From a virus, in IMG/VR virus record IMGVR_UViG_3300010368_000107, positions 1-24,411 of that record: a stretch of DNA of 24,411 bases, one strand, 5' to 3'. The notes under the pieces were generated by a model. That model saw only the letters and a list, made by a program, of their open reading frames with translations, made no database searches and was not told the origin of the DNA. Position 1 is the first letter of the stretch, and each line of letters begins with the position of its first letter. The position numbers and the translations under genes are program-made. Below are positions 2,729-24,000 of the stretch, in pieces.

Positions 2729-3192
2729 CCGCAGAACAAATCGCAGCCGATGTATCCGCCCGTTATGGCCTGCCTGTCATGGATGGTGCTTTCACAAGAT
2801 GCCCGCCGAACACCTACACATGGCAGATTGAGGGCGTAGACGACACGCCGCCTAGCTGGAAGGAAATGCGTCAGATCAGCCATGCCAACAGATCCCGCAC
2901 CCGCCGCGGGAATGGAGCAAGTGACGGGGTTAGCGAGGTTTGTATCCGCATGTATCTGGACAAGAAGCCAATCAGGGAAATCGCGGCGGTTGTTGAAATC
3001 AGCCGAAAGGCGGTGCGTGAGAGATTGAAGCGGGCAAAGGTCCATAATCCGCAGCAGGGGTACGATGCGCAAGTCAATGGGGCAAAGGCCACAAATGACG
3101 CCCGTTCAGCCGCGCAAGAGGCATTGCAGGCGATACGGGTAGCCCAAACGCAGGAAGGCCGCTCTACGGGCCGCGTTGGGGCCGATACATGA
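2725..3192 (+). CDS. Hypothetical helix-turn-helix protein
   Basis: I do not recognise a named family for this 155-residue protein. A likely helix-turn-helix lies at about residues 70-112 (IRMYLDKKPIREIAAVVEIS followed by RKAVRERLKRAKVHN), the layout of a resolvase- or sigma-type recognition unit. The N-terminal 60 residues (ARYGLPVMDGAFTRCPPNTY) and the polar C-terminus are of unknown structure. Start and stop overlap the neighbouring genes by 4 bases. It may be a second DNA-binding regulator of the early operon. Confidence 0.6.
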   Translation: MTAEQIAADVSARYGLPVMDGAFTRCPPNTYTWQIEGVDDTPPSWKEMRQISHANRSRTRRGNGASDGVSEVCIRMYLDKKPIREIAAVVEISRKAVRERLKRAKVHNPQQGYDAQVNGAKATNDARSAAQEALQAIRVAQTQEGRSTGRVGADT

Positions 3193-3383
3193 CCGCGCTT
3201 GAAACCTTCATCAGCACCGCAATCGGCTTTGCAGTCTCGTGGGCGCTGACATTCCACGTTTTGCCGCTCTGGGGCTTCGCGCCTTCGCACGGCGAGGCAT
3301 TGGGCATCACGGCGGTTTACACGGCGGCGTCATTCTTGCGCGGGTATGCCGTGCGGTGGGCGTTTCGGAGGGTGTGGGGATGA
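3189..3383 (+). CDS. Small two-helix membrane protein, DUF7220-like
   Basis: This 64-residue protein has two hydrophobic segments, at about 7-28 (FISTAIGFAVSWALTFHVLP) and 38-52 (LGITAVYTAASFLRGY), ending in a basic tail RWAFRRVWG. The order LPLWGF, then a glycine-containing helix, then SFLRGYAVRWAFRR matches the phage DUF7220 pattern, whose function is unknown. It sits in the early operon rather than the lysis module, so it is more likely to alter the host membrane or exclude other phages than to act as a holin. That is inference. Confidence 0.7.
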   Translation: MTALETFISTAIGFAVSWALTFHVLPLWGFAPSHGEALGITAVYTAASFLRGYAVRWAFRRVWG

Positions 3384-5524: not shown

Positions 5525-5824
5525 ATGGTTGAATCCACTAAACAAGTGAAATCTAGTGCGCCAAAGCCGCCAGCAGCAGGCATGGGCAGGCGCAAGGGCT
5601 CATTGAACAAAACCACAGCAATCATCAAAGACGCAATCTTGCAAGCGGCGGAGAACGCAGGCGGCAAGGGCGGGATGGTCGGATACCTGACATTGCAGGC
5701 AATCGAAAACCCCGGCCCGTTTATGTCATTGCTTGGTAAGGTTTTGCCCACGCAGATAGCAGGCGATCCAGACGCGCCGCTCGTCCACAAAATCGTGACT
5801 GAAATTGTCCATTCTAAGAACTAG
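5525..5824 (+). CDS. terS: Putative small terminase subunit
   Basis: This 99-residue protein has the pattern of short proteins placed directly before terminase large subunits in alphaproteobacterial phages: MGRRKGSLNKTTAIIKDAIL, then GGMVGYLTLQAIENPGPFMS and LLGKVLPTQIAG. The basic GRRKGSLNKTT stretch could bind DNA, and the following helices could form the oligomer. The small subunit recognises the packaging site and hands DNA to the motor. It is shorter than classical small terminases, so the assignment rests on position and the sequence pattern. Its end overlaps the large terminase gene by 20 bases. Confidence 0.7.
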   Translation: MVESTKQVKSSAPKPPAAGMGRRKGSLNKTTAIIKDAILQAAENAGGKGGMVGYLTLQAIENPGPFMSLLGKVLPTQIAGDPDAPLVHKIVTEIVHSKN

Positions 5825-7094
5825 AACGGCGGCGGCGTTTGCCCCGCTATTAGCACCAGCACGCTATAAAGGCGCATATGGCGGGCGCGGGTCGGGGAAG
5901 TCACAATTCTTTGCGGAGGAGGTGATCAAGTCTCATCTTGCGCAGCCGGGGCGGCGAACGGTCTGTATTCGTGAGGTGCAAAAGACCCTCAAGCAGTCTG
6001 CAAAACGATTGCTTGAGGATAAGATTGAGGAATATGACCTTTGGAAACAAGGGTTTCGCGCGACCAACGACTTTATTGAGACACCCGGCAACGGCACCAT
6101 AATCTTTCAGGGGATGCAGGACCACAGCGCGGAGAGCATCAAATCGCTGGAAGGTTTTTCTTGCGCTTGGATCGAGGAAGCCCAAACGCTTTCTGCTTTA
6201 TCGCTGCAACTTCTACGCCCGACAATCCGCGCGGAAAACTCCGAGCTATGGTTTAGCTGGAACCCCCGGCGGGCAGAAGACCCCGTTGACCAGCTATTGC
6301 GCGGGCCAACACCACCTGAGGGCGCGATAGTCGTCCAGGCCAACTGGAATGATAACCCTTGGTTTCCAGACGTGCTGGAGCAAGAGCGCCGAGGCGATCA
6401 ACAGAACGACCCGGAGCAATACGACCACGTCTGGGAAGGCGGTTACATCCGCGTTGTCAAAGGCGCGTATTTTGCCGAGGCGCTAGAGAGAGCCGCAACA
6501 GACGGGCGCATCACGACAATCCCCGCCGATCCGATTATGCGCAAGTACGCATATTGGGACATCGGCGGAACTAGCCGCACATCGGACGCAACGGCAATCT
6601 GGGTTGTGCAATTCGTTGGCGACCTTATCAACGTGTTGGATTATTATGAGGCGGTAGGGCAACCAATGGCCGAGCATATCGGCTGGCTGCACCGCCAAGG
6701 CTATTCTGAGGCGGTTATGATGTTGCCGCACGATGGACACAAACACGACATTGTAAACCGCGTTACGCCACGCAGCGCGCTAGAGTCAGCAGGGTTCAAA
6801 GCCGAGGTTATGCCTAACGCCGGATCAGGGGCAGCAATGCACAGGGTTGAGGCCGTGCGCCGGGTATTCCCGCGCGTTAGGTTCAACGCAGAAACAACCA
6901 AGCCGGGCCGTGAGGCTTTGGGCTGGTATCACGCAAAGATTGACCGCCACCGCAACGCCAACCTTGGACCGGATCACGATTGGTCCAGCCATGCGGCGGA
7001 TGCCTTCGGCGGTATGGCCGTCGACGTTCTGGAAAACCCTAAAACGGTTGTCTGGAAAGCGCCGCCACGCCGGAACATGCAAGGGATAGCCTGA
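5805..7094 (+). CDS. terL: Terminase large subunit (DNA packaging ATPase/nuclease)
   Basis: This 429-residue protein is the packaging motor. The ATPase domain has Walker A GGRGSGKS at residues 26-33 and Walker B CAWIEEAQ at about 120-127, followed by the coupling region LWFSWNPRR. The second half is an RNase H-like nuclease beginning YAYWDIGGTSRTSDATAIWV, with acidic residues there and in HAADAFGGMAVDVL near the end. The overall pattern is the PBSX/Terminase_3 type. The start is a TTG inside the previous gene (20-base overlap), chosen because the family begins with FAPLLAPARYKGAYGG. No ATG occurs before the Walker motif. Confidence 0.95.
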   Translation: MSILRTRTAAAFAPLLAPARYKGAYGGRGSGKSQFFAEEVIKSHLAQPGRRTVCIREVQKTLKQSAKRLLEDKIEEYDLWKQGFRATNDFIETPGNGTIIFQGMQDHSAESIKSLEGFSCAWIEEAQTLSALSLQLLRPTIRAENSELWFSWNPRRAEDPVDQLLRGPTPPEGAIVVQANWNDNPWFPDVLEQERRGDQQNDPEQYDHVWEGGYIRVVKGAYFAEALERAATDGRITTIPADPIMRKYAYWDIGGTSRTSDATAIWVVQFVGDLINVLDYYEAVGQPMAEHIGWLHRQGYSEAVMMLPHDGHKHDIVNRVTPRSALESAGFKAEVMPNAGSGAAMHRVEAVRRVFPRVRFNAETTKPGREALGWYHAKIDRHRNANLGPDHDWSSHAADAFGGMAVDVLENPKTVVWKAPPRRNMQGIA

Positions 7095-10255: not shown

Positions 10256-10869
10256 GCCTATTCGGTGAAAAGAAAAGCGAACAAACGATTCCCGCTTATA
10301 TTGAGGATGCGCAAAAGGCGGCGCTTTCCTTGGCGCAGAACCGCAACGCATTGGGCTATATCCCAAAGTATGGGCCGGAGATTGCCGCCTTCACGGGTCA
10401 GCAAATGGCCGCGATGAATGGCGCGAATCAAATGGCGGGCAGCTTGGGATTGCAAACCGCACCAATGAATATCCCCACGGCTAAAAACTACGGGAACGGC
10501 ATCACGGGGTATTCATCTCAAGACCTGTATCAAAGCAACATGGAAGAACTGAAGGCGGCAAACCCTGAATTATACGCCGCGATTGCCGCGCTTGTCGGCA
10601 AGGGGTCAGGGCAAACGGGCGGAATGCCGGGCGTTGACGCAAACGGCAACCCGATCCAGGGCGGAAACGTCCACGAAAACCCTTTTGGCGGGGGCACGCA
10701 GAGCAGCGGCAATCCGAGCAATAGCGGGGGCCTTAATAGCTCGCTAAATGGCGCTTTCGGCGGCGAATATGGCAGTATGCGTGACCGCTTCGACGGCGGC
10801 GGGCCGGGCAAATCAAGCGGGAGCCTCGGCGGGCGAATTGGCGGCGGTTTGGGGGGGTTGTTTGACTGA
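10252..10869 (+). CDS. Glycine-rich virion-region protein
   Basis: The ATG at 10252 overlaps the preceding stop as ATGA and begins MSLFGEKKSEQTIPAYIEDA; longer readings of this frame are only overlap with the previous gene. The product has 205 residues. The first 110 residues are helical and polar (AYIEDAQKAALSLAQNRNAL). The second half is a low-complexity glycine/serine/asparagine tail (GGGTQSSGNPSNSGG, GRIGGGLGGLFD). Proteins of this sort sit beside ejection proteins in related phages, so a role in the internal virion or neck is possible. No enzyme motif is seen. Confidence 0.6.
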   Translation: MSLFGEKKSEQTIPAYIEDAQKAALSLAQNRNALGYIPKYGPEIAAFTGQQMAAMNGANQMAGSLGLQTAPMNIPTAKNYGNGITGYSSQDLYQSNMEELKAANPELYAAIAALVGKGSGQTGGMPGVDANGNPIQGGNVHENPFGGGTQSSGNPSNSGGLNSSLNGAFGGEYGSMRDRFDGGGPGKSSGSLGGRIGGGLGGLFD

Positions 10870-11975
10870 TGATGATATATACACCTCAATTCAGCACACC
10901 GGGCGCGCAACTTAACGAACCGAGCGCGCAATTCAACACACAGACGGCGACCGGCGCTAACCCGTACACGTCTGGCAGAATGACGATGGGCGCGCAAATG
11001 GTTTCAGGCAGCCAGCAGATTGCCCTTCGCCAACCCGCGACTGACGTTGCAGGCATCTATCAAAACCAGCTAGGGCGCGCACCAGACGCGGCTGGATTGG
11101 CGTTCTATCAGGGCTTGCTTGATAACGGGACGATAGGTATTGACGAGATCCGCAGCAATATTATGGGGTCAGGCGAGGCGCTATCTTTCCAGCAATCGCA
11201 GCAAGCGCCACAATCGCAGCAAGCGCCACAAGGGCCGAATGTTTTTGACCAATCGGCGGCGGCGTTTCAATCTGCGATGCAGATGTTGACCAATCGCCCA
11301 ACGGCAGCCCCTGTAATCAAGGCGCAGAACGTTAGCGTGGGGCAGCTATCCAACGCCAACCTTGACCCGTATATGAACCCCTACACCTCGGCGGTGACGG
11401 ACCAAACCTTGCAGGGTCTTGACCGTGCGCGGCTTATGGCGATGAACGGAACGGACGCAGCGGCGGCGGGCGCATTCGGCGGATCACGACACGGCGTAAT
11501 GCAGGCGGAAACCAACCGAGGGTTTGCAGACACCAGCGCGCGGGCACTTTCGGGCTTGAATGTGGACAACTACACCAACGCGCAGGCGGCGGCGTTTCAA
11601 GACATTCAAAACCGGCTATCGGCCAACCAATCCAACGCCAGCAATTCGCTCAACGCTTCGGTTGGCAATGCGAACGCTCAACAGGCTTTCGACAGCGCAA
11701 ACATGAGCGCCGCCAATTCGCTCGCACAACTTTCTAACCTTGGGTTTGGGCAGGGTAACACGGCCCTGAATGCGCAGATGAACGCGGGCAACATGCAGCA
11801 AGGGCTAATGCAGCAGATCATTGACGCGGGCCAAGCGCAAAGCCAGGGCAATGTGAATTTTGCGGACGACGCGCTGTCGCGGTATATGGCAGCGATCCGC
11901 GGTATTACCACGCCGACCACGACCACGCAAACAGACACGCCCGGCCTGTTTGATATTTTGGCGCTGGCGCCTTGA
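10869..11975 (+). CDS. Virion protein with DUF4214-like domain
   Basis: This 368-residue protein has a short DUF4214-like unit at about residues 58-103: AGIYQNQLGRAPDAAGLAFY, then GLLDNGTIGIDEIRSNIMGS. That domain is best known from secreted bacterial proteins. A glutamine-rich tandem repeat follows at about 109-120. The rest (NLDPYMNPYTSAVTDQTLQG, FGGSRHGVMQAETNRGFADT, then long Asn/Ala/Gln-rich helices to about 330) is typical of internal or ejected podovirus proteins. The start overlaps the previous stop by one base, and the next gene overlaps by one. The exact function is not known. Confidence 0.65.
   Translation: MMIYTPQFSTPGAQLNEPSAQFNTQTATGANPYTSGRMTMGAQMVSGSQQIALRQPATDVAGIYQNQLGRAPDAAGLAFYQGLLDNGTIGIDEIRSNIMGSGEALSFQQSQQAPQSQQAPQGPNVFDQSAAAFQSAMQMLTNRPTAAPVIKAQNVSVGQLSNANLDPYMNPYTSAVTDQTLQGLDRARLMAMNGTDAAAAGAFGGSRHGVMQAETNRGFADTSARALSGLNVDNYTNAQAAAFQDIQNRLSANQSNASNSLNASVGNANAQQAFDSANMSAANSLAQLSNLGFGQGNTALNAQMNAGNMQQGLMQQIIDAGQAQSQGNVNFADDALSRYMAAIRGITTPTTTTQTDTPGLFDILALAP
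11193..11228 (+). repeat. 18-bp tandem repeat, two copies
   Basis: The unit CAATCGCAGCAAGCGCCA occurs twice in a row (11193-11210 and 11211-11228) and encodes QSQQAP twice in the linker of the DUF4214-like protein. The copies are identical, so this is likely a recent slippage event in a flexible linker. Confidence 0.9.
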
Positions 11976-13672
11976 TGGCAAATTACCTGCAATCCCTCAT
12001 CAATTCCGAAAGCGGCGGGAATTGGGCGGCAAAGAATAGCGAAATGGGCGCGGGCGGTAAGGCTGGCCACTTCGGGCGCGTTCAATTCGGGCAGGCGCGA
12101 TTGCAAGACGCTATGAACGCGGGCGCAATCCCGCAAGGGACTACACCACAGCAATTCATGGCATCACCTGATTTGCAGGTGGCGGCAGAAAAGTGGCATT
12201 TTGCGGACCTTGAGAGTAAGTTAGGGCCGCTTGTCGGCTCTGTTGTAAACGGCAAGCCGCTTGATATGGGCGCATTGGTTGCGATGGGCCACCTTGGCGG
12301 GGCCGGTGGCGCGCGGAAATTTGTTGCAACGGGCGGCAAATATAACCCGTCAGATTCATTCGGCACTAGCCTTTCCGATTATGCGTCTAAGCATGGCGAC
12401 CGAGGGCTTGCATCCGACACCATGCGCGCTATCGGCAAAGCCCCCACAAGCAGCAGCACAAGCACGATGAACGGAGCGGACCCAATGGCAGACACAGGCG
12501 GGCTTTTAGGCCAATTCAAGCGCACAGAGGAAAACGTTGGCGGGCTTTTGGGAATGTTGTTCAAAGGTATGTCGCCGGATCGGGCGGACAGTATTCGCGC
12601 GGCAATCGGCGGGATGCAGGGGATCGACAACGCGGGCATGGTTGACGCGGCGCGGGGGCGGATGCAGGGCCGCAGACAGACCGAGGCGGGCGACCTACAG
12701 TACCAGCGGGGGCTAGAGGCCGAGCAGCGCGGCTATGACCGTCAAGACGCGGTTACAGCGCAGCAGCAGGCGCAGGCCGATCAGCAGCGGGCGCAGGCAC
12801 GGGCATGGATTGCCGCCAATGCGCCGGAGCAGCTTGCAGCGTTTGACGCGGGCATGACAGACGCGGGCGGGGTTTATAAAGCGGCAACAGGCGCAGACGC
12901 GGACCCCAACGTGCAGAGCAGCGCAATGATGCCGGATCAAAGCGGAACGATCCTCACTATGCGGGACGGTTCCACAAAAGTCCAAACGATTGGCGGCGAG
13001 GTTCTCACCGGGAATGATGCGATAAAATACGTTCAGGAAGCACAGGCACGTTATACGGACGGGCAGCGCAGCATTTACGGCGCGCGAGAAACTGGAAAAA
13101 ATCAAGCCCAAATCGAAACAGGTGGCCAAGCGGCGGCGGCGATTGAGGCGGGCAAAGCATCGCCTGCATGGGCGAAGGCGTTCGGAGATACCGCAGCGCA
13201 GACTAGGGGCAGCATAAGCACAATCGACAGCGCGATTGCAGCTCTCGACACGGGGGCTAATTCCGGCATTATCTACAAGATGTTGCCCGCCGTTGATTTG
13301 GCGACCGCTACGCTAAGAAACGACATGAACCGCATGGGGCTTGATGTTATCGGCTCGGTAACATTCGGCGCGTTGAGTGCTGGCGAAATGGAACTGGCGA
13401 TGGAAACAGCCGCGCCGCGCAACCTAGAACCAGCAGAGTTGAAAATGTGGCTTGAGAGCAAGCGGGCGGTGCAGGCGAAAGCATACACTGCGGCAATGGA
13501 GGCGGCGCAACACTTTGCGGGGGGCGGCTCGCTTGCTGATTACTATGCGCAAATCCGTTACGACCCGACAGCGGTCGCAGCGCCACCGCCAGCACCATCG
13601 GCAGCGGCGGGCGTTACAGCGCCAGCCGACAATATCCCGACCTACAACCCAGCAACGGGGAAATTTGAATGA
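11975..13672 (+). CDS. Ejection protein with N-terminal lytic transglycosylase-like domain
   Basis: The product has 565 residues from ATG 11975, which overlaps the previous stop by one base; a TTG one codon earlier is less likely. Residues 1-150 form a lysozyme-like domain: LQSLINSESGGNWAAKN with the probable catalytic glutamate at residue 12, then GHFGRVQFGQARL and GALVAMGHLGGAGGARKFV. This domain would open peptidoglycan as DNA enters the cell. The rest is long and helical, with a glutamine/alanine-rich section at about 240-275 (QQQAQADQQRAQARAWIAAN) and a proline/alanine-rich end. This fits a virion protein injected with the genome. Confidence 0.75.
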   Translation: MANYLQSLINSESGGNWAAKNSEMGAGGKAGHFGRVQFGQARLQDAMNAGAIPQGTTPQQFMASPDLQVAAEKWHFADLESKLGPLVGSVVNGKPLDMGALVAMGHLGGAGGARKFVATGGKYNPSDSFGTSLSDYASKHGDRGLASDTMRAIGKAPTSSSTSTMNGADPMADTGGLLGQFKRTEENVGGLLGMLFKGMSPDRADSIRAAIGGMQGIDNAGMVDAARGRMQGRRQTEAGDLQYQRGLEAEQRGYDRQDAVTAQQQAQADQQRAQARAWIAANAPEQLAAFDAGMTDAGGVYKAATGADADPNVQSSAMMPDQSGTILTMRDGSTKVQTIGGEVLTGNDAIKYVQEAQARYTDGQRSIYGARETGKNQAQIETGGQAAAAIEAGKASPAWAKAFGDTAAQTRGSISTIDSAIAALDTGANSGIIYKMLPAVDLATATLRNDMNRMGLDVIGSVTFGALSAGEMELAMETAAPRNLEPAELKMWLESKRAVQAKAYTAAMEAAQHFAGGGSLADYYAQIRYDPTAVAAPPPAPSAAAGVTAPADNIPTYNPATGKFE

Positions 13673-15669
13673 CTGAATATGTCACCATAACCCTGCCAGA
13701 TGGTCGCGCCGTTCGCTTTCCGTCCAGTATGACGCGCGCCCAAATGGCCGATGCCCTAAACAGCTTCCCAGCACCAAAGGGCGGCGCTTCAACCAACAGC
13801 GAGGCCGTTGCCGAATTGGGCAGCAAAGCCCGCTCGTTGGCAATGGGTGGGCAGAACGGCGCAAGCTATGGCCTTGCTGACAACGCGGTGGGCGTTATGT
13901 CGGCAATCACCGGGGCCGTGCCAAACGAGGGCGGCGGCAAACGGTTGTTTGATTATTCCGGAAGCTTTGGCGACAGGTACGAGCAAAGCCGAGATTTGCA
14001 GCGCGGGCAGTTCAACGATGCGAGGGAGGCGAACCCCGGCGCATTTATGGCGGGGGACGTTGGCGGCGCGGTTGTGCAAGCCCTTACAACCCTGCCAATA
14101 GCCACCGGGGCGACCATCTGGAACACCATCGCGCGCGGTACGGGGATTGGTGCGGTTGAGGGAACACTGCAAGGCGCGGGCAACGCTGACGGCGTGGATG
14201 TGGGCAAGAAGGCACTCGCGGGCGGGCTTTTGGGTTCCATTCTTGGCGGCGGCGCTCCTGTTGCGGCCTTGGCAGGGTCTAAGGCTACACGCCTGTTGAG
14301 TGACCCAGCCGGGGGGCTTATCGACCTTGCCCTTGGCCGCGCGAACCAAGGCAAAGCAAACCGCACTATAACATCGGCGCTGCAAAAAAGCGGGCAGGGT
14401 TCCGACGATGTGGCGCGGTCGATTGCTAAAGCGGCGGCGGATGGTCAACCCGAATACACACTAATGGACGCGCTAGGTATGCCGGGGCAGAGGACCGCGA
14501 ACGGCATTGTCCGGGGCGGCGACAGCAAAGCGGGGCTTGATTTGGCTGACTTCCTAGAGAAGCGCCAGCTTGGACAGCCCGAACGGGTTTCTAGGTTTAT
14601 TGATGACGCGTTCGGGATGAACGGGCAAAGCGCGGAGCAAACCCGCACAGCGATGACTAGCGCACGCGGCAAGGCGGCGGATACGGCGTATTCAGCAGCG
14701 CGCGGCAATGCGGCACCAGTTGACGTGCGCGGCGCTATTTCCGTCATTGATAACCGCATTGGCGGCATGAATGGCAGCGGCGTTGTGGGCGATGGTATCG
14801 ACGGAAAACTTGCATCATATCGCAACAGGCTTGCGGCCAAGCCTCCGCCAAACGGGGAAATATCCCGCGAATTGAGCGACTTTGACCGGGTTCTTGGCGT
14901 CAAACAGTCAATTCAAGATGACATCGGCGCAGCGGTGCGGGCAGGCCGCAATAATGAGGCGCGCGAACTTGGCAAGCTTGTGGAAGAATTGGACGCAGCG
15001 CTTGAAAATTCGTCTGACATGTATCGCACCGCAAACGATGGTTTCCGCAAGGCGTCCACAGAAATCGACGCGATAGATCAAGGCGTTGATATGTTGCGCC
15101 CCGTGCGCCGTGAAACTGACACCACCCAACAGTTCGGCAAGATGACACCGGAGCAGCAGCAGGCGGCACGCACGGGCTACGGCGACAGAATGTTGTCCGG
15201 CATTGAGGCAAACAAAGCCCCAACGGCGAACCGCGCAAAGGCGGTGCAAAGTACCAAGATGGACGCAGAAGCGGCGGCAATGGCTATCGATCCCGACACA
15301 TACGCGCGGCGGCTTGCGCGCGAGACAGAAATGTGGATGACGCAAAATAAGGCGCTTCAGGGTTCAGCCACGGCGAACAATTTGCAAGACATTGAAGGCG
15401 CATCCAGAACATCGGGCGGGCTTTTCCAAGCGCTGCAAAAAGCTGGAAACTTCCAGCTTGGGGATGCGGCGGCGCAAATCATGGCAACGCTTGGTCCTAT
15501 GTCCAAAGGCCAGACCGAGGCAACAAAGCAACTAATCGCCAAAGCGCTTATGTCGACGGACCCAATGGCGGTGCTAGCCCCAGCGTTGCGTCAAGAGGCA
15601 GGCTCACAGCAGACCCGGCGGGTAATCGAGTCCATCATCCGCAACACGGGCGGCGCGTTGGGGCGTTAA
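13669..15669 (+). CDS. Large internal virion (ejection) protein
   Basis: This 666-residue protein overlaps the previous gene by ATGA. It opens with VTITLPDGRAVRFPSSMTRA followed by QMADALNSF, a small N-terminal motif common in large phage internal proteins. A glycine-rich hydrophobic segment at about 180-205 (ALAGGLLGSILGGGAPVAAL) could enter or cross a membrane. The remainder is mainly charged helices. Together with the preceding gene it probably builds the channel that carries DNA through the envelope. Its stop shares TTAA (15666-15669) with the stop of the opposite-strand gene. Confidence 0.65.
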   Translation: MTEYVTITLPDGRAVRFPSSMTRAQMADALNSFPAPKGGASTNSEAVAELGSKARSLAMGGQNGASYGLADNAVGVMSAITGAVPNEGGGKRLFDYSGSFGDRYEQSRDLQRGQFNDAREANPGAFMAGDVGGAVVQALTTLPIATGATIWNTIARGTGIGAVEGTLQGAGNADGVDVGKKALAGGLLGSILGGGAPVAALAGSKATRLLSDPAGGLIDLALGRANQGKANRTITSALQKSGQGSDDVARSIAKAAADGQPEYTLMDALGMPGQRTANGIVRGGDSKAGLDLADFLEKRQLGQPERVSRFIDDAFGMNGQSAEQTRTAMTSARGKAADTAYSAARGNAAPVDVRGAISVIDNRIGGMNGSGVVGDGIDGKLASYRNRLAAKPPPNGEISRELSDFDRVLGVKQSIQDDIGAAVRAGRNNEARELGKLVEELDAALENSSDMYRTANDGFRKASTEIDAIDQGVDMLRPVRRETDTTQQFGKMTPEQQQAARTGYGDRMLSGIEANKAPTANRAKAVQSTKMDAEAAAMAIDPDTYARRLARETEMWMTQNKALQGSATANNLQDIEGASRTSGGLFQALQKAGNFQLGDAAAQIMATLGPMSKGQTEATKQLIAKALMSTDPMAVLAPALRQEAGSQQTRRVIESIIRNTGGALGR

Positions 15670-15893
15670 ATCGAGGTGTAAAGCCATATCGCACCGGGCA
15701 AGGCGGCTGCAAACGGGATCAGGATGTAAGCGTAAACCTTCAAGGGCAAGTCATCTTGCGGGGTTCCGGTCTTTTCAAGGCGGCGGGCCGTAATAAGCCC
15801 GACCACGCCAAGGCCGCAAGCCGCGTTCGCGACAATCACCGCCGAAACAATCTGAAAAAACATATAAATATCCATACCCCAATAAGTGACCAC
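15666..15893 (-). CDS. Small two-helix membrane protein on the opposite strand
   Basis: This is the only - strand gene I accept in the window. The longest form starts at GTG 15893 (75 residues); ATG at 15875 (MDIYMFFQ, 69 residues) or 15863 are alternatives and seem more natural. Two hydrophobic helices are clear: IVSAVIVANAACGLGVVGLI and VYAYILIPFAAALPGAIWLY. They are separated by a charged loop RRLEKTGTPQDDLPLK. No clear ribosome binding site is seen. No family is recognised. It could be an accessory gene acting on the host membrane, for example in superinfection exclusion, but that is a guess. No + strand frame fills this gap. Confidence 0.55.
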   Translation of the reverse strand: MVTYWGMDIYMFFQIVSAVIVANAACGLGVVGLITARRLEKTGTPQDDLPLKVYAYILIPFAAALPGAIWLYTSI

Positions 15894-15911
15894 GCCTTAA
15901 CCCCGCGTCAA
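15882..15911 (-). promoter_or_regulatory. Possible weak promoter for the - strand membrane gene
   Basis: On the - strand TTGACG (15911-15906) matches a -35 box in five of six positions. At 18-base spacing ACTTAT (15887-15882) matches a -10 box in only three. The transcript start would fall near the ATG at 15875, which would make a leaderless message and explain the missing ribosome binding site. Confidence 0.2.
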
Positions 15912-15974: not shown

Positions 15975-17945
15975 ATGAAAAAAACCAAAATCACGGACCA
16001 AATACAGTCCAACGTCAAAGCGCAAGTGCAGGCCGCGCGGTCTTTCATCGCGTCAAATATCGCGCCGGACCGCATCAAAGCCGACCGTTACCGCAATGGA
16101 GAGGTTGATATTGGCAGCGAGGCGGGCCGTTCGGCGGTTGTCGCAACGCCAGTTTCGGACACCGTGCGCGCGGTTAAGCCTGCCCTGATGCGGTTGTTCT
16201 TGCAGAGCGACCCGGTTGAATTTGTACCACGCACCCCGCAGGACGTTCAAAGCGCACGCCAGCGGACCCAGATGGCGCGTTATGTGTTTGACCGATCAAA
16301 CGGGTTTATGGTGCTGCATGATGTGTTTGATGACGCGCTTGTCAAGAAAGTTGGCATTGCCAAGGTTTCTTGGGATGAAAAGCAAGAAATCGAGTTTGAC
16401 GAATATTCGGGCCTATCGCTAGAGGCCGCGCAGTATATCGCGGATCAGCCCGATATTGAGGTTGAAAGCGCCACGCAGGAGCCTGACGGTTCTGTGTCCA
16501 TGAAAATATCGCGGACCAGCGACAAGGGCCGGATTAGCATAGAGGCATTGCCGCCAGAAACGTTTTTCGTGAACGCCGAAGCCAAGAGCCTAGAGACAGC
16601 GACCATTTGCGGCCACGCGGAAGAGCAGACCGTTGGCGACCTTGTGGCGATGGGCTTTGACCTTGAGGACGTGCAAGGGCTGGACGGCGAAACCGAGGAC
16701 GAAGAAAACAGCGAACGGCACGAGGGCGTCACCGAGGAGGAAAGCGACGATCCGTTGATGAAAAAGGTTCTGGTGACAGAGGCTTACATGGACGCGGACC
16801 TTGAAGGAACGGGCATCCCGCGCAAATACAAGTTTATCCTTGGCGGTTCCGCTTTCGATGTGCTGGACTTTGAGCCATGCGATCAAGTGCCTTTCGCGGT
16901 GTTTGAAGTTGATCCAATCCCGCACGCCTTTCATGGGCGCAGCTTGGCCGAAATCCTTATCCCCGATCAGGACAGCCAGACCAGCATGGAGCGCGGGTTG
17001 CTGGACTCAATCAATATGGCGAACACCCCGCGCGTTGTTGCGTTGAAGGGCAAAGTTGACGTTGACAGCCTGTTAAACAACGAAACGGGCGGCGTTATCT
17101 GGGCAGACCAGATGGACGCGGTACGGGAATTTTCCATCGGCAACGGCGCGACGATCGCCTTGCCAGCGTTGCAATATCGGCAGACGCGCATAGAGGCCAA
17201 AACGGGCGTGCAGGGCGTGGGCATGGGCTTGGATGCCAATGCACTACAGAACCAGTCGGCAACGGGCGCAGGCATCGCGGAACGGGCCGCTATGGGCCAG
17301 ACAGAGTTGATTGCGCGCACCTTGGCGGAAGGCGGCATGAAACAGCTTTTCAAGTTGATCGATGCGCTTGTACGGCAACACCCCGACCAAAACACGATGA
17401 TGCAAATCGCGGGCGAGTTTGTTGAAGTCGACCCGCGTTCGTGGTCGGCTGATGCGGACGTGACGGTAAACGTTGGGCTTGGCACCAACCGGGCAGACGA
17501 ACGCACGGCGGCGCTAGGTTCGATGGTTCAGATGCAGATGAATATTTACCAGACCCTAGGCGCGGATAACCCGCTTGTAGGGCTTGGCGAGATCCGCACG
17601 GGCATAGCGGACTTTTACCGCGCACAGGGCATTTTTGACGCCTCCAAATACATCAAGCCATTCGGGCCGGAACAAGCCGCGATGATGCAGCAGAAGGCCG
17701 CACAGCCACAGCAGCAGCAGACCAACCCGCTTGCCGAGGCTGAAATGATTAAAGCGCAATCCAAAGAGAAAACAGACGCCGGGCGGCTGATGCTGGATGC
17801 GCAGAAGTTCAAGATGGACGATGACCGCAAGCGGGACGAAATGGCGCAAAAGCTGGCGCTTGAGGCCGTGAAATTGCAGGGCCAATACAACGTACAGCCC
17901 GACTTGCAGGCGATTGAGTACCAGCAAAACTTGCCGCGCTACTAA
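15975..17945 (+). CDS. Portal protein
   Basis: This 656-residue protein is a podovirus portal of the P22/SU10-like type, the dodecameric ring at the capsid vertex. Features: an N-terminal helical region with VATPVSDTVRAVKPALMRLF, a middle domain with ISIEALPPETFFVNAEAKSL, and an acidic loop (GETEDEENSERHEGVTEEES). Next come FAVFEVDPIPHAFHGRSLAE and DSQTSMERGLLDSINMANTP, the portal stem region. The C-terminus has a glutamine/alanine-rich tail beyond FDASKYIKPFG, expected for barrel helices. GGAA lies 5 bases before the ATG. Scaffold and capsid genes follow in the classic order. Confidence 0.9.
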   Translation: MKKTKITDQIQSNVKAQVQAARSFIASNIAPDRIKADRYRNGEVDIGSEAGRSAVVATPVSDTVRAVKPALMRLFLQSDPVEFVPRTPQDVQSARQRTQMARYVFDRSNGFMVLHDVFDDALVKKVGIAKVSWDEKQEIEFDEYSGLSLEAAQYIADQPDIEVESATQEPDGSVSMKISRTSDKGRISIEALPPETFFVNAEAKSLETATICGHAEEQTVGDLVAMGFDLEDVQGLDGETEDEENSERHEGVTEEESDDPLMKKVLVTEAYMDADLEGTGIPRKYKFILGGSAFDVLDFEPCDQVPFAVFEVDPIPHAFHGRSLAEILIPDQDSQTSMERGLLDSINMANTPRVVALKGKVDVDSLLNNETGGVIWADQMDAVREFSIGNGATIALPALQYRQTRIEAKTGVQGVGMGLDANALQNQSATGAGIAERAAMGQTELIARTLAEGGMKQLFKLIDALVRQHPDQNTMMQIAGEFVEVDPRSWSADADVTVNVGLGTNRADERTAALGSMVQMQMNIYQTLGADNPLVGLGEIRTGIADFYRAQGIFDASKYIKPFGPEQAAMMQQKAAQPQQQQTNPLAEAEMIKAQSKEKTDAGRLMLDAQKFKMDDDRKRDEMAQKLALEAVKLQGQYNVQPDLQAIEYQQNLPRY

Positions 17946-23186: not shown

Positions 23187-23243
23187 ATGGCTGAAACGCA
23201 CAAGCGGGCGATTCTGTCCGGCTGTCAAGCGCGGGGCAAATAA
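23187..23243 (+). CDS. Possible 18-residue peptide with good ribosome binding site
   Basis: Between 23122 and 23243 there is no longer gene. An ATG at 23187 has AGGA 6 bases upstream and encodes MAETHKRAILSGCQARGK. Its TAA shares one base with the ATG at 23243 (TAATG). It could be a tiny peptide that couples translation to the next gene, or simply a leader. The sequence has no known relatives that I can name. Confidence 0.3.
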   Translation: MAETHKRAILSGCQARGK

Positions 23244-23476
23244 TGGCTGAAATCATTAGGGACTTTTGGGCCGTCATCGCGGCGGTGGTTGCGGCTGTCG
23301 TTTGGCTGGTACGGCTAGAGGCGCGGGGCATATCCAACGCCGCCGAAATCAGGCGGTTATGGGCGCAGCGCAAAGAGGATTTGGAGCTGCAAAGCAAGGC
23401 CCGCGAGGAAACCAACCACATGCTTTCCGAAATACGGGCAGACATTAAGGCGCTATTGCGCGAGGTGAAACAGTGA
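23243..23476 (+). CDS. Membrane-anchored coiled-coil protein of the lysis module
   Basis: This 77-residue protein has one N-terminal transmembrane helix (FWAVIAAVVAAVVWLV) and then a long charged helix to the end (AAEIRRLWAQRKEDLELQSK, then HMLSEIRADIKALLREVK). This layout resembles XhlA-like lysis accessory proteins that work with a holin. It lies directly before the endolysin gene and overlaps it as GTGA. It could also be a spanin-like or pinholin-type protein. Direct proof of holin function is not in the sequence. Confidence 0.55.
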   Translation: MAEIIRDFWAVIAAVVAAVVWLVRLEARGISNAAEIRRLWAQRKEDLELQSKAREETNHMLSEIRADIKALLREVKQ

Positions 23477-24000
23477 GACAGGTCAACGAAATTATCGTGC
23501 ATTGCACGGCTACCCGTTCCGATTGGTGGGCAAATAAGCGCACATCCGAAAAGGTGGCAGAGATTAAGCGGTGGCACGTTCAGGACCGTGGATGGAACGA
23601 CATCGGGTATCATTACCTGATCGACCGCGATGGGACTGTTGCCAAGGGCAGGCCGATTGAAAAGATTGGTGCGCACGTTGCGGGGCACAACACGGGCACG
23701 ATTGGGATCAGCCTCTTCGGCGGGCACGGGTCGGCGGAAACGGATATGTTCCACGAGCATTTCACGCCAGCCCAAGAGGCGGCGCTGCACAAGCTGATTG
23801 CGGATCTGCGCAAGCGGTTCGGCGTGGTGAAAATCACAGGGCACAACCAATACGCGGCCAAGGCGTGCCCCGGCTTTAACGTGCCGGATTGGTTTCGCGC
23901 GGTTTCGCCGCCCCTCGATCACGTCCCGGTCAAAGCGCCCCCTAGCTTCTGGGCCGCTCTCGTGAAAGTATTTGCCAATTTATTTCTGAGGAAATCTTAA
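23473..24000 (+). CDS. Endolysin: N-acetylmuramoyl-L-alanine amidase, T7 lysozyme-like
   Basis: This 175-residue endolysin belongs to the Amidase_2 family and cuts the bond between N-acetylmuramic acid and L-alanine at the end of infection. The zinc ligands are visible: histidine 10 in IIVHCTAT, histidine 124 in GHNQYAAKACPGF and cysteine 132 in the same motif. The catalytic tyrosine 46 (DIGYHYLIDRDG) and lysine 130 are also present, at almost the same spacing as in T7 lysozyme. The start is GTG 23473, overlapping the previous stop. No signal peptide is seen, so export needs a holin. Confidence 0.92.
   Translation: MRQVNEIIVHCTATRSDWWANKRTSEKVAEIKRWHVQDRGWNDIGYHYLIDRDGTVAKGRPIEKIGAHVAGHNTGTIGISLFGGHGSAETDMFHEHFTPAQEAALHKLIADLRKRFGVVKITGHNQYAAKACPGFNVPDWFRAVSPPLDHVPVKAPPSFWAALVKVFANLFLRKS

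Follow-up and report, generated by a model that had tools for sequence, protein, structure and literature searches.

The stretch of DNA analysed here (the window) is a 24,411-nucleotide viral fragment, IMG/VR record IMGVR_UViG_3300010368_000107. It carries on its + strand the third gene of a presumed ejection group, which encodes a DUF4214 protein (10869..11975), a second ejection/endolysin-like gene (phrog_26675; 11972..13672) and the last ejection-type gene (phrog_5880; 13669..15669). The ejection role of the phrog_5880 protein is putative and is assigned from its position and neighbours; no solved structure matched it. On the far side lies a SU10/P22-type portal gene (15975..17945, +; SU10_portal, E 4e-165). 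Between the two, as the first-pass annotation had described, an ORF is present on the - strand, running from a GTG at 15893 to a stop codon at 15666-15668. The TTAA at 15666-15669 is common to this stop and to the end of the + strand gene 13669-15669. The apparent status of this ORF as the lone - strand gene agrees with the ORF list.

The true start of the gene is probably ATG 15875 rather than GTG 15893, because most relatives begin with M-D/E at this position and the end of a promoter-like element lies 5 nt before it. Translation from the ATG gives a two-helix protein of 69 aa (15666..15875, -), beginning MDIYMFFQIVSAVIVANAAC, which we consider below as a candidate superinfection-exclusion protein. 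The GTG start used earlier would add 6 aa at the N-terminus (15876..15893, -) and is weakly supported. The promoter-like element, TTGACG-19-CTTATT (15881..15911, -), is weak alone but recurs in relatives; a strict promoter scan of the window found none at the gene start, and the recurrent element emerged only when relatives were compared. At 9 of 17 loci, the best promoter-like element in the 100 nt upstream ends 4-7 nt before the conserved start, a geometry found at 1 of 129 other gene starts and at 7% of random ATGs. Such close spacing suggests a leaderless transcript, predicted to arise from the gene's own promoter, and the recurrence of the element directly at the start codon supports the earlier proposal of an accessory gene with its own promoter. 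L032 and L035 lack the element but have another antisense gene upstream, and could be operons. In some relatives, for example L022, a terminator-like hairpin followed by a run of T lies on the + strand between the gene start and the portal gene. Transcription of the late genes would thus cross this gene in antisense before terminating.

Two hydropathy segments were found in the protein, and the AF2 model, for which a 16-sequence alignment of relatives was the input, has helices at 3-35 and 45-68 with a mean pLDDT of 94.8, confirming the two helices that had been noticed before as transmembrane. Helix 1 contains an Asn conserved in all 17 sequences of the family alignment. Nearly all family members have 2-5 Lys/Arg in the loop that joins the two helices, while the termini are mostly neutral or acidic; on this basis the protein is predicted to be an inner-membrane hairpin with its basic loop in the cytoplasm and both ends in the periplasm. 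No known family had been recognised in the first-pass annotation, and this held when Pfam, PHROGs, PADLOC, NCBIfam and the PDB sequences were searched, which gave nothing above threshold for the window protein. Weak matches to TraL and to a decarboxylase were below threshold and were rejected as noise. A fold search of BFVD returned no match at E <0.8, a helix hairpin being too simple to be informative in such a comparison. A small membrane protein of DUF7220 (E 1e-16) is encoded elsewhere in the window, at 3189-3383 (+).

The - strand gene is real and conserved. Searched alone against 50,697 phage records, the window protein had matches in Sulfitobacter phages pCB2047-A and -C alone; when IMG/VR was scanned, one contig was matched. 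In each of them the frame lies antisense behind the same ejection gene. Gathering relatives via the ejection gene extended the sample to about 20 distinct phage lineages, all with a homologous or similar antisense ORF abutting the ejection-gene stop; with loci chosen in this way, copies elsewhere would be visible only in the fetched flanks, the phage-record search or the IMG/VR scan. Every Rhodobacterales-type locus fetched via the ejection gene has a homologue detected by profile. The 17-member profile was run over the 8,397 frames of all loci and matched only frames antisense at the ejection-gene stop, the weakest accepted match having E 1.4e-5 and the next frame E 0.39. Matches outside the members of the profile were L045, an out-of-sample Rhodobacteraceae genome (E 5e-16), L009/L030 (4e-11) and EBPR podovirus 2 (1.4e-5), which has a different ejection protein. 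The frame, which might have been broken by stops in related phages, was intact in all of them. Comparison of the window with L022 gave pN 0.30 and pS 0.67, rough values with pS near saturation. Third codon positions were the most variable, indicating purifying selection on the protein in this frame.

The gene is bound to the ejection gene rather than to the portal gene. A two-TM antisense ORF was found at the stop of 14 of 17 ejection genes compared to 1 of the 148 further genes of these loci, and the three misses are family members that fell under the hydropathy cut-off. The next + strand gene is the portal gene in only part of the relatives (the window, L001, L022, L025 and L033); in others, among them phi-A, L007, L028 and L029, that position is taken by a tail fibre or another late gene. 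The gene was therefore rejected as a marker of the portal junction, being also present where a tail fibre adjoins. Likewise, the loose island of about 300 bases that had been proposed was not borne out, since the gene tracks its ejection-gene partner. The place is also occupied beyond the family. Rhizobium phages RHph_N2 and RHph_Y25 and Microcystis phage Mae-JY35, whose ejection proteins are more distant, have unrelated short antisense membrane ORFs there, and additional two-helix ORFs, not recognised by the profile, are present in the Rhodobacteraceae prophages L054, L057 and L058. The phrog_5880 matches in L047-L052 are weak and partial, and some of these loci are remnants or lack the gene.

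The carriers of the gene are temperate where this could be read from near-complete genomes. A tyrosine integrase was present in all 8 of the near-complete carriers first checked, and also in phi-D and EBPR podovirus 2; two carriers without one are fragments of 11 and 19 kb. The window, itself a 24 kb fragment, contained no integrase. Phages phi-A and phi-C have been published as temperate (PMC4047441). The earlier suggestion of a lysogen-type accessory gene is supported by these relatives. Among relatives of the phi-D-type ejection protein, three in which no integrase was detected have no annotated two-helix antisense gene. This negative control is only suggestive, because a hydrophobic antisense ORF, missing from the annotation, is present in one of them, Octadecabacter DB virus 2. 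This ORF (L064:3839-3991, -) overlaps the annotated gp21 (+), which may be mis-annotated.

The Sulfitobacter phages phi-A (HQ332142) and phi-D (NC_027299) provide a natural comparison. They share 99.0-99.8% identity along most of their genomes and diverge in an early region with regulators and in a block comprising the antisense gene, the ejection gene, an endolysin-like gene and neighbours. The protein at the ejection position of phi-D (phrog_21712) is unrelated to that of phi-A, and behind it lie two antisense features: a lipoprotein gene, SUFP_017, and a two-helix ORF of 48 aa, missing from the annotation, which overlaps the stop of the ejection gene. In this one phage pair, ejection genes and antisense envelope genes were thus exchanged as one cassette, as they should be if the envelope proteins act on the ejection proteins. 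Lysogens of phi-A and phi-D each resist their own phage and are infected by the other, and the differing regulators were proposed as the cause (PMC7305329). The regulators alone could account for this pattern. A published tail-fibre explanation of the specificity is unsupported: the annotated tail fibre genes (L003:19048-19959 in phi-A; L062:10522-11433 in phi-D) sit in a 99.7% identical block, which makes the tail fibre an unlikely cause.

Lipoproteins often accompany the two-helix gene. In temperate podophages, small lipoproteins ending in CY recur antisense behind the ejection genes, together with the two-helix gene or close to it (L062:11505-11819 (+); L032:6600-6881 (-); L057:5244-5615 (+); L065:3577-3906 (-)). 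L032, L057 and EBPR podovirus 2 have relatives of the SUFP_017 lipoprotein in the corresponding position. The antisense lipoproteins of about 90-120 aa that accompany the gene in several relatives recall the Ltp-type exclusion lipoproteins of prophages and the Eex lipoproteins of plasmids. However, the window has none, the relatives' lipoproteins have no accepted family match, and the resemblance of one CY-ending lipoprotein to EexN is weak and sub-threshold.

SieA of the Salmonella phage P22 sits in the inner membrane and has about 160 aa and at least three helices. It prevents related phages from injecting their DNA, and mutations that escape it lie in ejection proteins. In the P22 genome, ejection gene 16 is followed at a distance of 23 nt by the antisense gene sieA (13336-13830, -), after which come mnt (-), arc (+) and ant (+). 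The window gene resembles sieA as a lone opposite-strand membrane gene right behind the last ejection gene, P22 likewise being a temperate podovirus, with the lysogeny-control genes mnt, arc and ant adjoining sieA (PMC10883804). SieA also has its own promoter (PMC10883804), which serves in the lysogen, and the window family has the recurrent promoter-like element at its start codon. In contrast, SieA has 164 aa compared to 69 aa and two helices here, the phages belong to a different group, and the window family is found with at least two unrelated ejection families. Profile comparison of the window family with P22 SieA (type A) gave a probability of 0.1% over 3 columns, which is no detectable homology. 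The family is therefore not filed as SieA, and our claim is only that the two may work alike. An order like that of P22 immI was found behind the ejection gene in alphaproteobacterial prophages (L054:1128-2797; L030:6775-8538): in L054 and L030/L009 the antisense membrane gene is followed by an Arc-like gene (-), an Arc-like gene (+) and a pRha-ANT antirepressor gene (+). The + strand Arc-like gene of L030/L009 has no Pfam match and was recognised by eye. T4 Imm is a further lead for comparison, although T4 is a virulent phage, unlike the carriers here.

By analogy with SieA, we think it probable that the gene encodes a non-homologous, SieA-like superinfection-exclusion protein of marine temperate phages, aimed at the DNA-delivery conduit. 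The prophage would make the small inner-membrane hairpin from the gene's own promoter, with expression in the lysogen, and antisense late transcription would silence the gene during lytic growth. The hairpin protein might then bind the ejection proteins of incoming related podophages and interfere with the conduit built from them, so that DNA entry would be blocked and the lysogen protected. The added antisense lipoproteins at this place, which resemble in kind those known for exclusion, would fit such a role. Against it stand the absence of sequence similarity to SieA and the difference in size and helix number. In addition, phi-A infects phi-D lysogens, which is unexpected with a broad activity of the P22 SieA type, and specificity must therefore be assumed.

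The lysogen-type features name no function, however, and unrelated small envelope proteins occupy the same spot. Both observations would also suit a membrane protein of lysogenic conversion that serves a different purpose (host envelope, fitness or prophage stability) and whose gene sits behind the ejection operon because insertions are tolerated there. We regard this as unlikely: it leaves unexplained the joint swap of ejection and antisense envelope genes, as well as the constancy of the ejection-gene partner whatever the other neighbour. It is improbable that the gene product is a small hydrophobic protein of the abortive-infection or toxin type, by which the infected cell would be killed or depolarised. 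Small membrane hairpins are capable of such an effect, and HigBA-like genes were recognised by eye in the same region of L054, but most loci have no adjoining antitoxin partner, the PADLOC search was without match, and the gene is tied to the ejection gene, not to regulators.

The size and two helices of the protein would suit a class II holin. Yet the gene runs opposite to the late operon, the lysis genes are 7 kb away, an endolysin-type amidase (23473-24000) is accompanied by small membrane ORFs at 23243 and 24002 (+), and the lysis genes of phi-A are also elsewhere, making a holin or antiholin of the lysis system highly improbable. We give hardly any credence to a reading in which the minus-strand transcript, and not the protein, matters through antisense control of late genes. 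The convergent arrangement with overlapping stops would accommodate it, but it is at odds with selection acting at the protein level, the third positions being the most variable, and with the conservation of the helix 1 Asn throughout the family alignment.

Returning to superinfection exclusion, a wider reading can be offered tentatively, at slightly less than an even chance. The antisense envelope genes may form an undescribed exclusion locus, exchangeable and inherited as one cassette with the ejection proteins that it targets, and the type of this cassette would define a second immunity group, at the level of entry, beside repressor immunity. Such a locus would comprise a two-helix inner-membrane protein, often a lipoprotein and sometimes an immI-like Arc/antirepressor switch, and its carriers would be temperate podophages of alphaproteobacteria and some others. 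If true, a second, unrelated family at the same genomic place would suggest that entry exclusion via ejection proteins is general and has been repeatedly invented by temperate podophages. The phi-A/phi-D pair of Sulfitobacter would be a ready laboratory system for separating repressor immunity from entry exclusion.

Two further observations were made among the relatives. L039 is a Rhodobacterales-type phage on a contig filed under a Candidatus Paceibacterota MAG, probably a binning error. L009 encodes a 145-aa version of the protein (5775-6212, -) in which the two-helix unit seems to be present twice, as a fusion.
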